Shown: in pieces, positions 3,238-47,911 of the stretch
How positions within the stretch are numbered: the stretch's first letter is position 1
Layout: the number at the start of each line of letters is the position of its first letter
From: a virus
DNA length: 64,000 nt
Virus record (IMG/VR): IMGVR_UViG_3300025679_000001
Location: 64,001-128,000 of that record
Strand: one strand, 5' to 3'
Program-made: the position numbers and the translations under genes
Notes under the pieces: generated by a model
What the model was told of the DNA's origin: nothing
What the model saw: only the letters and a program-made list of their open reading frames with translations
Databases searched by the model: none

Positions 3238-3266
3238 AATCTACAACATGAAGAGGAAGATGTCAA
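3238..3266 (-). promoter_or_regulatory. Early sigma70-like promoter
   Basis: TTGACA-N17-TAGATT ahead of the 3213 gene, same class as 2888-2916. Confidence 0.8.
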
Positions 3267-3284
3267 CTACTATTTTCGGACAGC

Positions 3285-3317
3285 AAAAAGGACCAGGAGC
3301 TGAGCTCGACTGGTCCT
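3285..3317 (-). terminator. Terminator of the tRNA-Glu/ncRNA transcript
   Basis: The minus strand reads AGGACCAG, a loop rich in AGCTC, CTGGTCCT, then TTTTT. It closes the unit that starts at the 4364-4392 promoter. Confidence 0.85.
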
Positions 3318-3321
3318 AAAT

Positions 3322-3396
3322 TGGAAGCGGGAGAAGGAGTTAAACCTTCCTCAAACGAGCTTATGAGACTCGCTGGATCATCGGATCGCTACCGCC
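3322..3396 (-). tRNA. Aberrant tRNA with CAT anticodon (Met or Ile2)
   Basis: 75 nt with encoded CCA. The acceptor pairs 6 of 7, and the anticodon arm CGAGT-CTCATAA-GCTCG is good. The D arm is a 4-bp GATC/GATC stem with a 4-nt loop lacking the GG dinucleotide, and the T loop is TTTAACT with T at position 56. Both partners of the usual elbow contact are therefore missing. It may be a degenerate or specialised tRNA. Confidence 0.6.
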
Positions 3397-3401
3397 AAAA
3401 A

Positions 3402-3476
3402 TGGTCCCCACGACCAGATTCGAACTGGCGTCCAAGGATTGAGAGTCCGAGTGTCCTTCCGGTAGACGACGTGGGG
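3402..3476 (-). tRNA. tRNA-Glu (CTC)
   Basis: 75 nt with CCA. Acceptor CCCCACG/CGTGGGG, Glu-like D arm (TCGTCTA-CGG-AGGACAC), anticodon loop CTCTCAA, T loop TTCGAAT. One mismatch in the anticodon stem. It lies directly 3' of the giant RNA, so processing at its 5' end would define that RNA's 3' end. Confidence 0.9.
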
Positions 3477-3479
3477 ATT

Positions 3480-4359
3480 AGTAGGGCGAGACTATCTTCC
3501 CTATTGTGCGTACTCCTTCGGGCATTATGCCGGATTTGCACTCCGGTTTCTCCCGACGTCCATCGACCTTTTGAGCCGTAGAGCAGCTGTGTCGCAGTTT
3601 TAGGTCATGCAGTAGACCGACGTACTCGAGCTCTCCGCCACCTCTGTCCACGCCAGTCTTTCAACTGTGAGTCCCCGCTAAGGAACTACGTAAACTCTTT
3701 GACGAACTAACCTCACCTTGCGGGATCAGTTAGACTGGATTGCTTGCGCCCCAGTTTTAGACACCTTTCACTCTAGTACCGAGATAGACTTTGCTGCACG
3801 GATTCGAACCGTAAAATCTTTTGTTCAATAAAAGATCACTTAACCACTAAGTGAGTTGGAACCTATTGAGACGTGCTATCTCAGTTGCGTCAGGACCTTT
3901 TGAACCCCAACATACAACACGCCTTCTTGCCTTTCACGGGCTACGCTACTGAGCACCTCTTCGCGAACCAGTCATCACTGCCAGGTTCAGCTTGAGAAGG
4001 GTCTCGCCCTCGGCAGCGAAGCCTCGGACTCTTTTGTGACCCCGGACGTTCTCGTTCAGATTCGGACGTTTGGTTAGTCAGCGCCGGCACCACCCGCTAC
4101 GTTCCCAGCCACGGTGGTTCCCCTTGCGGGCCACTGGGCGACTGGTCAGTCTGACTCGTCGTTATGCTTATGACCCAGCCTAGCGGCTGAGCCGGGTGTT
4201 GCCACCCCGAGCGTCCTATCGTAAACGGGTCATCCTTGCGGTGATGTGCTCACATAGACATAGAGCACTTTGGGTCGATCACTCGACTTATCCTTGAACT
4301 ACCCGAAGGTAGTCCCTCCTAGGCCTTGCGACCTAGACCGACGTCACGACGCCGGAGAA
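3480..4359 (-). ncRNA. Giant GNRA-rich structured RNA, GOLLD-like candidate
   Basis: About 880 nt with no open frame of note on the minus strand. The two ends pair over about 810 nt: TTCTCC-GCGTC near 4348-4359 with GACGT-GGAGAA at 3548-3560. Many hairpins carry GNRA or UUCG loops on the minus strand, for example CTAGGTC-GCAA-GGCCTAG, GTCGA-GTGA-TCGAC, GGGTG-GCAA-CACCC and ACTACC-TTCG-GGTAGT. A tRNA-like domain is embedded near 3791-3866. It has its own promoter (4364-4392) and sits inside a tRNA block. GOLLD RNAs are about 800 nt, phage-borne, tRNA-adjacent and sometimes enclose a tRNA, so this is the best class match. A new class is the alternative. Confidence 0.7.
3779..3884 (-). ncRNA. 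tRNA-like domain caged inside the giant RNA
   Basis: A 9-bp helix CTGAGATAG/CTATCTCGG encloses a D-like arm (CACT-TAGTGGTTA-AGTG), an anticodon-like hairpin with loop ATTGAAC on a 7-bp stem (the loop reads TGA after T33), and a T arm ACGG-TTCGAAT-CCGT. No acceptor stem can be paired at the usual place, so a free charged tRNA seems unlikely. Confidence 0.6.
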
Positions 4360-4363
4360 CTAT

Positions 4364-4392
4364 GTACTACACCAGGGACACGATGGTGTCAA
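4364..4392 (-). promoter_or_regulatory. Promoter of the giant RNA
   Basis: TTGACA-N17-TAGTAC on the minus strand, placing the transcript start near 4357, exactly at the closing helix of the structured RNA. Confidence 0.8.
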
Positions 4393-4492: not shown

Positions 4493-4566
4493 TGGAGCGA
4501 GCGAAGGGAATCGAACCCTTGTCCACACGTTGGCAACGTGTGATTCTACCATTAAACTACGCCAGC
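4493..4566 (-). tRNA. tRNA-Gly (GCC)
   Basis: 74 nt with CCA and U73, as expected for Gly. Anticodon arm ACACG-TTGCCAA-CGTGT, D arm TAGTTTAATGGTAGAAT. One acceptor mismatch (position 3-70). Its first bases overlap the stop codon region of the GIY-YIG gene. Confidence 0.85.
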
Positions 4567-5186
4567 AAAAATTGTCTTCCTAATATATATCCAAGCGAAA
4601 TGTACAAGTCAACCTCATCAGCGCTTATTTTTATAGAACCTCTTTCGTTGGTCACCCACTTAGTTCCAAACTGTGAGTTTTTCTTTCCTGTCCTAAGTTT
4701 TGCCTTAACTGACATTAGTTTTTTAGTTCGTAGTGAATGAGTTTTTCCTTTGAAACTTCTGCCATCTCTATGACTACCATCACTGATAGCTTTATTCATT
4801 TTCCTCTTGAACTCTGGATCCTTCTGTTTTTCTATCAGTGCAGCGGCTGCGATCTTGATATTTTGTCTAGATGTTTCTCTCTTTTTTTCAGTATTGCTGA
4901 GACCATTTTCGTTGACATAACCCCATCCGTTTTTACCGCCTGGACACAGGTTGTAGGTCGTCTCGTCGATCACCACGAGCTCCTTCTCCTTAGCATTCAT
5001 ATCTTGTTCATTGTCGAAGACGAACAAGATCTCCTTCACGAAGTTCTCAGCCCCGCGCTTCTTAATAGCAAGTGTGATAAGCTTCCCAGATCCCATGTAA
5101 CCGTCTTGAAGATCTTTCGTCTGGTGCTTCCCAACGTAAGTCTTGCCGTTCAACTTGTTGGTGATGCGATAGATCGTGTAGTACAA
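4557..5186 (-). CDS. GIY-YIG (Seg-like) homing endonuclease
   Basis: 209 aa. The N-terminal GIY-YIG core reads YYTIYRITN...TYVGKH, followed by a conserved E/N region. The C-terminal half is Lys-rich with NUMOD-like repeats (KRKMNKAISDGSH, TKKLMSVKAKLR). The start is TTG 5186; no ATG/GTG precedes the GIY motif. The SD (GAAGG) is buried in a 16-bp hairpin whose other arm holds a TATAAATA late promoter, a layout known from T4 seg/I-TevI regulation. The 3' end overlaps tRNA-Gly by 10 nt, which points to insertion next to a tRNA gene. Confidence 0.85.
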   Translation of the reverse strand: MYYTIYRITNKLNGKTYVGKHQTKDLQDGYMGSGKLITLAIKKRGAENFVKEILFVFDNEQDMNAKEKELVVIDETTYNLCPGGKNGWGYVNENGLSNTEKKRETSRQNIKIAAAALIEKQKDPEFKRKMNKAISDGSHRDGRSFKGKTHSLRTKKLMSVKAKLRTGKKNSQFGTKWVTNERGSIKISADEVDLYISLGYILGRQFLLA

Positions 5187-7860: not shown

Positions 7861-8226
7861 TCAATAAAGCTTCAAGTGCTTGAAAGTCCCGATCTCGGTG
7901 TCCCAGATCGGGCCGATTCCTATGCACGTCAATGTTGGTTCCTTAAACACTGTGCGCCCGCTGTCAACTACTTTTCCGCAAGGAATCTTCATCTGGACAC
8001 ATGCGTCGAACACCTCGTTCAGCGCGTCTTCAGAGTCAACACCGAGGACGATCTTAGCCTCGTTCCCGTCTCCCGAGAGATAGTTCTGGAGCAGCTCTGC
8101 AGGGAATGACTTAGAATGCTCAGCCTTAAGTATCATCCTCACGGCGGCGTGACCGACCTGAGCTGCCAACTTTCCGGGAGGCATTTCAAGGTCGCGCCTG
8201 GCGACTATGTACATCCTACTGCTCAT
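7861..8226 (-). CDS. pth2: Peptidyl-tRNA hydrolase 2 (Pth2) family
   Basis: 121 aa, the usual size of Pth2. The N-terminus has VARRDLEMPPGKLAAQVGHA, matching the Pth2 DLxMxxGKxAAQxxHA signature with the catalytic Lys, and the C-terminus has VVDSGRT...PTLTCIGIGP...LKLY, matching DAGRTQ...T.laigP...LkLl. Pth2 frees peptidyl-tRNA and is the archaeal/eukaryotic type, not the usual bacterial Pth1. In this tRNA-rich phage it probably recycles stalled peptidyl-tRNAs. It overlaps the upstream DUF4031 gene by 4 nt. Confidence 0.88.
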   Translation of the reverse strand: MSSRMYIVARRDLEMPPGKLAAQVGHAAVRMILKAEHSKSFPAELLQNYLSGDGNEAKIVLGVDSEDALNEVFDACVQMKIPCGKVVDSGRTVFKEPTLTCIGIGPIWDTEIGTFKHLKLY

Positions 8227-8968: not shown

Positions 8969-9661
8969 ATGATCAGCACTTTTCTAGACTTTATGACTGA
9001 GAACTTTCGCTTTACGCTGAAGTATCACGAGAGGTTGAACCCGAAGCTCTGGAGCAAGAGAGGGTGGCTGAAGGACGACGTTCACGAGAAGCTGCTGACC
9101 CAGGCTGACGGTTTCATCGCCTTTTGCGAGATTCCAGAGAATCAGGTCAAGGACGTAGTGATCACCGGCGGGAACGTAAACTACAACTACACCAAGTTCA
9201 GCGACGTCGACGTTCACGTTCTAGTAGACATGAAGGGACTGGACTCCGAGGAACTCTATGACAAGAAGGTCGCCTGGAAGAACGAGCACGACGACGTCGT
9301 CGAGGGCTATCCCGTCGAGATGTACGCCGGCGACGCTTCCGAGGAGCACCCGAAAGGGCAGGGCTTCTTCTCCATCAAGAATAGTAGATGGGTCGAGTAC
9401 CCGAATCACATGGACCGGGTCGACGCGCTGGAGGACAGGTTCGTGATCGAGAAGATCCAGCACGCCATCCACTTCATCAGGTTCCTGGTCAGCAAAGGCA
9501 CGCTGGACGAGATCGAGGACTACAAGCACAAGCTTTTCCAAGCGAGGTCCTCTGGGCTGCACGACGGCGGCGAGTTCTCCCCGGAGAACGTGATGTACAA
9601 GGAGCTGCGCAACCGCGGCTGGATCGACAAGCTCAACGCCAAGTATCACTCCCTGAAGTAG
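8969..9661 (+). CDS. Nucleotidyltransferase (Pol-beta fold)
   Basis: 230 aa. TGGNVNYNYTKFSDVDVHVLVD has the G-G/S, then D-x-D layout of the Pol-beta nucleotidyltransferase superfamily, with further acidic residues around VEMYAGDASE. It may transfer nucleotides to RNA, small molecules or protein; the substrate cannot be read. The ATG has no SD and follows the promoter-like CTAAATA by only a few nt, so leaderless initiation is possible. Plus strand, convergent with the DUF6891 gene (stop codons adjoining). Confidence 0.75.
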   Translation: MISTFLDFMTENFRFTLKYHERLNPKLWSKRGWLKDDVHEKLLTQADGFIAFCEIPENQVKDVVITGGNVNYNYTKFSDVDVHVLVDMKGLDSEELYDKKVAWKNEHDDVVEGYPVEMYAGDASEEHPKGQGFFSIKNSRWVEYPNHMDRVDALEDRFVIEKIQHAIHFIRFLVSKGTLDEIEDYKHKLFQARSSGLHDGGEFSPENVMYKELRNRGWIDKLNAKYHSLK

Positions 9662-9971: not shown

Positions 9972-10000
9972 GATCTACCACAATGTGAAGAAGATGTCAA
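9972..10000 (-). promoter_or_regulatory. Early promoter of the DUF6891 gene
   Basis: TTGACA-N17-TAGATC, followed by the shared AGAATCACAATTGGAGGAAC leader. Confidence 0.8.
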
Positions 10001-13478: not shown

Positions 13479-13552
13479 TGGCGGCCCTGGCGGGAATCGA
13501 ACCCGCGGTCTGGAGATTGAAAGCTCTTGCTTTGCCACTTAGCTACAGGACC
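13479..13552 (-). tRNA. tRNA-Glu (TTC)
   Basis: 74 nt with G73-CCA. Acceptor GGTCCTG/CAGGGCC, anticodon loop CTTTCAA in an imperfect stem, T arm GCGGG-TTCGATT-CCCGC. Its first base overlaps the stop of the upstream gene. Confidence 0.82.
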
Positions 13553-16057: not shown

Positions 16058-16086
16058 GATCTACCACATCAGGAAGAGGTTGTCAA
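16058..16086 (-). promoter_or_regulatory. Early promoter
   Basis: TTGACA-N17-TAGATC with the shared AGAATCACAATTGGAGG leader. Confidence 0.8.
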
Positions 16087-20731: not shown

Positions 20732-20760
20732 GATCTACTACAACATGAAGAAGATGTCAA
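20732..20760 (-). promoter_or_regulatory. Early promoter of the acidic protein gene
   Basis: TTGACA-N17-TAGATC with the shared leader. Confidence 0.8.
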
Positions 20761-47801: not shown

Positions 47802-47883
47802 TGGGCCTCACGGCAGGACTCGAACCCGCGTTTTCATTCCATCTACCTTTTTCGACGTTCGTAGCGTCGAGGGATACGTGAGG
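47802..47883 (-). tRNA. D-armless tRNA-Arg-like (ACG)
   Basis: 82 nt, C73-CCA. Acceptor CCTCACG/CGTGAGG and T arm GCGGG-TTCGAGT-CCTGC are regular. A perfect hairpin TCGACG-CTACGAA-CGTCGA gives ACG. Only TCCC lies where the D arm should be, and a 22-nt linker follows. Confidence 0.6.
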
Positions 47884-47911
47884 ATCTATACGGCCAGTCA
47901 ATCAATGTCAA
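47883..47911 (-). promoter_or_regulatory. Promoter of the tRNA-Arg / 47799 unit
   Basis: TTGACA-N17-TAGATC (or N15-TATAGA) on the minus strand. Confidence 0.7.

Follow-up and report, generated by a model that had tools for sequence, protein, structure and literature searches.

A divergent GOLLD RNA of a T4-like phage and a truncated tRNA-like core in the linkers of its relatives

A minus-strand region of some 880 nt among the tRNA genes of a virus record raises two questions, namely to which class of RNA it belongs, and what role a tRNA-like element within such an RNA could have. GOLLD RNAs often exceed 800 nt, and the 5' domain, which precedes the 3' domain, is the less conserved of the two. 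They are found in phages and prophages near tRNA genes, a variable linker in the 3' domain sometimes carries a tRNA, and their expression goes up in phage lysis. An earlier note on this DNA, made from the letters alone, had guessed that the region encodes a GOLLD-like RNA, and had proposed a comparison with the GOLLD and ROOL covariance models and a test for covariation.

Class and folding of the RNA

The window, by which we mean the whole 64,000-nt stretch of DNA analysed, was searched with the Rfam GOLLD covariance model (RF02032), and the minus strand was matched over the full length of the model, positions 1-416, with 140.1 bits and an E-value of 9.8e-39. When the search was extended to the entire record of 175,763 bp, this GOLLD was the one match (E 3.1e-40). 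No match to the ROOL model was obtained in the window at E-values up to 10, and other Rfam classes gave matches at chance level only, such as a permuted tmRNA with 18.7 bits over tRNA-Val. The score of 140.1 bits falls short of the Rfam gathering score for GOLLD, which is 150, and complete homologues above the cut-off score 157-308 bits. These above-cut-off GOLLDs align with the window RNA across both halves, and are found in records having the same AAA ATPase as the window phage. A profile of 86 related RNAs, from which the window RNA had been left out, aligned to positions 4299-3516 with an E-value of 1.8e-54. The guess at the class was thus borne out. A conserved coding frame was absent, and the longest minus-strand ORF in 4357-3477 was of 57 aa, in agreement with the lack of a minus-strand ORF that the earlier note had remarked on. 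The region is almost certainly a non-coding, divergent GOLLD RNA. A new class of giant RNA unrelated to GOLLD would be in keeping with a score below the gathering cut-off, but the full-length match (E 1e-38) and the homology to above-cut-off GOLLDs refute it in practice, and we regard it as barely conceivable.

The setting is that of a phage, with 25 tRNAs in the window and, in the virus record, gp23 and T4-like replication genes (the T4-like markers being gp23, UvsX, a DnaB-type helicase and DNA polymerase). Among named phages, blastn with the window region and with the GOLLD of one relative (L109) returned tRNA matches only, or none. RF02032 had no match in LP65, K, Lb338-1, vB_OspM_OC, Pumpernickel, Mel-JY01, DLP_6, Cr30, RHph_I1_18 or Atu_ph07, a result of the tool that does not prove absence.

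The 5' domain lies outside the Rfam model (Table 1). A profile of the 5' halves of GOLLDs from other large phages, built without the window, had its sole window match at 4298-4005 (E 1.8e-10). The consensus fold of 30 sequences, including that of the window, contained 89 pairs, 77 of them with compensatory change, and the number of double-changed cells was 567 against 153 in shuffles, with every slid control far lower. The covariation that had been proposed as a check is therefore present, and the structure of the 5' domain is under selection. In this alignment the window row kept 52 of 77 scored pairs and ranked next to last in the set, as is expected when a divergent RNA is aligned by sequence. 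Similarity of the 5' domain to that of another GOLLD group (L002-L060) was weak and local, and the cage cap may therefore differ from the one in that group.

Two structural claims of the earlier note fared less well. A helix joining the two ends of the RNA over about 810 nt proved to be at chance level: the best candidate, UCCGGCGUC with GACGUCGGG, has 9 pairs over a span of about 805 nt, and the longest helix between shuffled ends averaged 9.1 pairs. Pairing between the two ends was not seen in the base-pair probabilities, and part of the 3' segment of the candidate sits, in the GOLLD model, in another conserved hairpin. We therefore rejected the end-to-end helix. The enrichment in GNRA/UNCG hairpins was confirmed, with four having stems of at least 4 bp compared to a shuffled mean of 0.64, but the count of at least seven was not reached with stems of this length. 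The folding energy of the minus strand was unexceptional (z -1.48).

Table 1. Predicted features of the GOLLD locus in the window
Feature	Position	Strand	Basis and remarks
Predicted GOLLD RNA	3477..4357	-	About 881 nt; RF02032 and homology over both domains; both ends inferred
3' domain (Rfam RF02032, GOLLD)	3483..3927	-	Covariance model match
5' domain, outside the Rfam model	3960..4357	-	nhmmer homology and covarying consensus fold
tRNA-like core	3797..3854	-	D arm 3854-3836, anticodon arm 3834-3818, T arm 3813-3797; no acceptor stem
Promoter	4364..4392	-	-35 TTGACA 4392-4387, 17-nt spacer, -10-like TAGTAC 4369-4364
tRNA-Glu(ctc)	3402..3476	-	ARAGORN and Rfam; directly downstream of the GOLLD RNA
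Probable further tRNA, anticodon cat	3325..3397	-	Cloverleaf-like fold; Rfam tRNA-clan 19.3 bits, sub-threshold; assignment inferred
Probable intrinsic terminator	3285..3317	-	AGGACCAG...CUGGUCCU, then U5

The transcription unit

The strong promoter that had been noticed ahead of the RNA was located as a sigma-70-like TTGACA-N17-TAGTAC element, in which the -35 hexamer is perfect and the -10 hexamer is weaker. TTGACA-N17-TAG occurs at 14 sites in the window, compared to about 0.5 expected for both strands of 64 kb, and 13 of the 14 are on the minus strand, which is the gene-bearing strand. A recurrent phage promoter of this kind has the form TTGACA-N17-TAGAT(T/C) on the minus strand, for example at 2888-2916, 3238-3266, 9972-10000, 16058-16086, 20732-20760 and 47883-47911. 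Upstream of the GOLLDs of relatives, TTGACA-N16-18-TATAAT was found with a score of at least 11/12 in 52 of 89 cases, and in 0 of 89 shuffled sequences.

At the other end, a tRNA-Glu had been placed at the 3' edge of the RNA, and it is indeed there, 6 nt past the end of the GOLLD match at 3483 and just beyond the region that the earlier note had delimited. A second tRNA-like cloverleaf, missed by ARAGORN, follows in the same presumed transcript as the GOLLD RNA. The terminator region (3275-3325) folds with -17.5 kcal/mol (z -3.16). We placed the 5' start of the RNA at 4357 from the position of the -10 hexamer, and its predicted 3' end at 3477 from the expected RNase P cleavage at tRNA-Glu. A minus-strand transcript would thus run from its own host-type promoter to the terminator, taking in GOLLD, tRNA-Glu and, probably, a second tRNA, and an RNase P cut at tRNA-Glu would release the GOLLD 3' end.

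Other elements of the tRNA-rich region were seen alongside. ARAGORN gave no identity to a tRNA at 13479-13552(-), the anticodon loop of which (ttca) has 8 nt. The ORF of a GIY-YIG (SegE-like) endonuclease (4557-5186, minus strand) has its stop codon within the tRNA-Gly gene at 4493-4566, and genes for a PTH2 peptidyl-tRNA hydrolase (7861-8226, minus strand) and a nucleotidyltransferase-fold protein (8969-9661, plus strand) are also present.

The tRNA-like core in the linker

GOLLDs of large phages were gathered from IMG/VR using a search pattern located outside the linker, so that the retrieval did not select for a tRNA-like core. A strict parse for a D arm, an anticodon arm and a T arm succeeded in 80 of 100 distinct linkers compared to 4 of 2000 shuffled ones, and most of the unparsed linkers visibly contained the same element with altered loops. 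The core was missing in at least four relatives (L110, L119, L190 and L192), and it is therefore not essential to GOLLD RNA; the linkers of these four, which belong to the same clade, have other short hairpins in its place.

The cores were set against the ordinary tRNAs of these phage loci, of which 945-952 could be parsed. All of the outer three acceptor pairs were formed in 7/80 cores and in 816/952 ordinary tRNAs, while the inner four pairs were formed in 73/80 and 811/952, respectively; the stem of the cores thus consists of the inner 4 bp, and not of the seven pairs of a tRNA. A 3' CCA was encoded in 2/80 cores as opposed to 932/945 free phage tRNAs. The anticodon was NUU in 66/80 cores and 95/952 tRNAs (p 3e-45, a value that overstates independence because the counts come from related sequences), and about 17% of core anticodons were other than NUU. 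Most NUU loops of the cores read CUNUUAA, and some core anticodon loops are 8-9 nt long. Position 57 was A in 60/80 cores compared to 115/952 tRNAs. Among NUU anticodons, a purine was present at position 39 in 58/61 cores and 3/64 tRNAs, the loop-closing 31-39 pair being reversed in the linker cores.

When 60 linkers were aligned, each of the four helices covaried, with 97-100% of cells paired, and compensatory change was nil in the outer three acceptor pairs. The elbow bases A14, G18, G19, T54, T55, C56 and A58, together with the D, anticodon and T arms, were present in 60/60 aligned relatives, an invariance that is limited to the aligned set, which omits 13 of the 73 non-redundant linkers, among them some whose D, T or anticodon loops are changed. 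For 58 of 60 cores the best other core was at least as close as any free phage tRNA, which argues that the cores form one lineage and rules out repeated fresh capture of tRNAs. Judged on this sequence evidence, the linker element is a conserved tRNA mimic and not a tRNA gene. The earlier note had added that GOLLD RNAs sometimes enclose a tRNA; this applies here too, except that the enclosed element is a tRNA-like core that is truncated, and not a tRNA.

Variants were observed within the clade. In the cores of L117, L139, L153, L174, L218 and L230, G18 and G19 are lost and the T arm is changed, and the NUU loop is kept. L114 has an intact tRNA-Gly(tcc), at 1419-1492, between the GOLLD 3' domain and an apparent terminal helix. 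L245 and L257 carry a GOLLD with a tRNA-like core that has a Gly anticodon. Their contigs had been binned into Hyphomicrobiales MAGs, a hint that some members of the clade have alphaproteobacterial hosts; a search of 199 Hyphomicrobiales genomes found GOLLD in these two contigs only.

The core of the window RNA itself is more degraded. The Rfam tRNA model gives 16.8 bits at 3797-3852, which is weak by itself. A model of the linkers of relatives, built with the window excluded, gives 27.9 bits (E 1e-4) at 3786-3866, and since ordinary window tRNAs also score with this model, the specific evidence is the homologous linker position with its aligned flanks. In the nhmmer alignment to the cores of relatives, the acceptor 3' strand and an A-rich spacer are deleted from the window core. 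G18, G19 and the T loop (UUCGAAU) are retained, U8 and A14 are not, and the anticodon is UGA in place of NUU (loop AUUGAAC). Energy folding alone did not predict a cloverleaf for the window core and preferred another structure. With no acceptor stem or U8, a UGA anticodon and no predicted cloverleaf, the core in this branch may be changing its role or decaying. The core of a close relative, L278, is also altered, with a non-standard D arm and the T loop UGCGAAU; its GOLLD is followed by tRNAs Gln, Val and Glu. This near GOLLD relative (L131/L278, IMGVR_UViG_3300031949_000049) and the record with the nearest DNA polymerase (58%; L258, IMGVR_UViG_3300031949_000018) are contigs of one metagenome, and possibly belong to one phage related to that of the window.

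Possible roles and relation to known systems

The locus is best explained, with a probability of about two in three, as the GOLLD RNA of a T4-like phage, from a family in which the linker carries a tRNA-like core. The solved GOLLD structure is a 14-mer RNA cage with a disordered linker inside (PMC12286853). By homology the 3' domain, and probably also the 5' domain, would form such a hollow homo-oligomeric cage, and we consider assembly of this kind by the window RNA probable. The linker inside the cage would then present the tRNA-like core in this clade. The shortened acceptor stem would keep RNase P and the aminoacyl-tRNA synthetases from treating the core as a tRNA, and the GOLLD RNA would stay uncut with the elbow and anticodon loop retained. 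In the lineage of the window the mimic would be reduced to three arms.

Many elbows and NUU loops that can be neither charged nor cleaved would occupy a host factor recognising tRNA-Asn/Lys, for which the anticodon nuclease of a defence system is a candidate. One defence nuclease has two substrates that match the NUU loops, and a change at position 39 protects tRNA-Lys from it (PMC12409363); the NUU loops and the altered position 39 of the cores match these features, and led us to favour, among the possible uses, that of a decoy which is tethered to the cage and engages host factors that bind or cleave tRNA. We offer this tentatively, as the link of the cores to anticodon nucleases is one of resemblance. 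More broadly, the GOLLD cages of large tRNA-rich phages could be counter-defence devices that capture anticodon nucleases or other tRNA-targeting effectors, each chain displaying inside the cage a mimic of tRNA-Asn/Lys that could not be charged, processed or cut. This generalisation is speculative, and we think it unlikely.

That the cores are ordinary embedded tRNA genes, processed out to supply translation, might be supposed from the many tRNAs that phages of this kind carry and from the annotation of several cores as tRNA-Lys, -Glu or -Asn by ARAGORN. However, the outer acceptor pairs are near chance, CCA is absent in 78/80, some anticodon loops have 8-9 nt, and the window core has no acceptor stem; in addition, the product of a mycobacterial pseudo-tRNA within a GOLLD was not detectable (PMC6582537). 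A functional embedded tRNA was rejected on the acceptor stem and CCA, and this possibility is very unlikely. The absence or alteration of the core in some relatives, its degradation in the window and L278, and AT-rich linkers without a core in GOLLDs of the other group would fit a captured tRNA gene that decays without function, in a cage that works without it. For the window's own branch such decay is plausible. For the clade as a whole it is rather unlikely, as it does not lead one to expect a uniform 4-bp acceptor stem, or strong compensatory change in four helices and near-invariant elbow bases across 60 divergent sequences, and the similarity within a single lineage excludes repeated fresh capture.

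Two further roles would leave the core selected. The self-complementary UUAA of the anticodon loops could kiss between chains in the cage, making the core an assembly element with the function of GOLLD residing elsewhere; symmetric kissing loops exist elsewhere in GOLLD cages (PMC12286853), and CUNUUAA is found in most NUU loops. We consider this improbable, because about one fifth of the loops, including the AUUGAAC of the window, are not self-complementary, kissing does not need a conserved D-T elbow, and the solved cage has a disordered linker. Alternatively, the core may bring parts of the translation machinery to the cage, for instance ribosomes or enzymes that modify tRNA. Both of these read the elbow and the anticodon loop, which the core preserves, and according to work cited in PMC12286853 GOLLD binds ribosomes in pull-downs, but an acceptor end for delivery by EF-Tu is lacking, and recruitment appears doubtful.

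Embedded tRNAs in GOLLD were noted before (PMC12286853), and earlier accounts of the linker tRNA speak of an occasional cargo or of a pseudogene. The pattern of truncation and NUU bias appears to be new: a literature search did not find a description of a clade-wide, covarying, acceptor-truncated and NUU-biased GOLLD core, the 2009 description of GOLLD, which may note some of this, lying outside the search. The 2025 cryo-EM paper called the function of GOLLD unknown, and an RNA-only cage is known for one member (PMC12286853). With a selected mimic in one large phage clade, it becomes a specific question which tRNA-binding protein recognises the core, and another whether the phage needs it against tRNA-targeting defence. 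A conserved, disabled tRNA copy facing the interior of the cage would thus suggest a route to testing the purpose of GOLLD cages. It also calls for caution, as tRNA finders annotate GOLLD linker cores as real phage tRNAs.

Compared to known systems, the window RNA shares with GOLLD RF02032 the full-length match of the 3' domain, a variable 5' domain, a length of about 880 nt, a place beside phage tRNA genes and the position of the linker; it differs in being divergent (140 bits), in the acceptor-less tRNA-like core of its linker, and in a 5' domain distinct from that of the L002-L060 group. GOLLDs of the latter group have no tRNA-like core, and some are downstream of tRNA-Met, as is env-38. 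With the env-38 14-mer nanocage (PMC12286853) the RNA has in common its class and the linker position, which is inside the cage in env-38; however, the env-38 linker is short and disordered, and assembly of the window RNA is a prediction. ROOL is likewise a large phage RNA near tRNAs and forms an RNA cage, but lacks a match to the window RNA in sequence or structure. The tRNA-Lys of T5, in its encounter with AriB of PARIS (PMC12409363), resembles the cores in that phage-encoded tRNA-Lys/Asn anticodon arms are changed at position 39. The phage tRNAs that evade AriB are working replacements for cleaved ones, whereas the GOLLD cores should be unable to act as tRNAs. The mycobacterial GOLLD pseudo-tRNA (PMC6582537) is, similarly, a predicted tRNA-like element inside a GOLLD for which a separate product was not detected; it was reported as a single pseudogene, whereas the element described here is clade-wide and covarying, with a 4-bp acceptor stem and an NUU bias.
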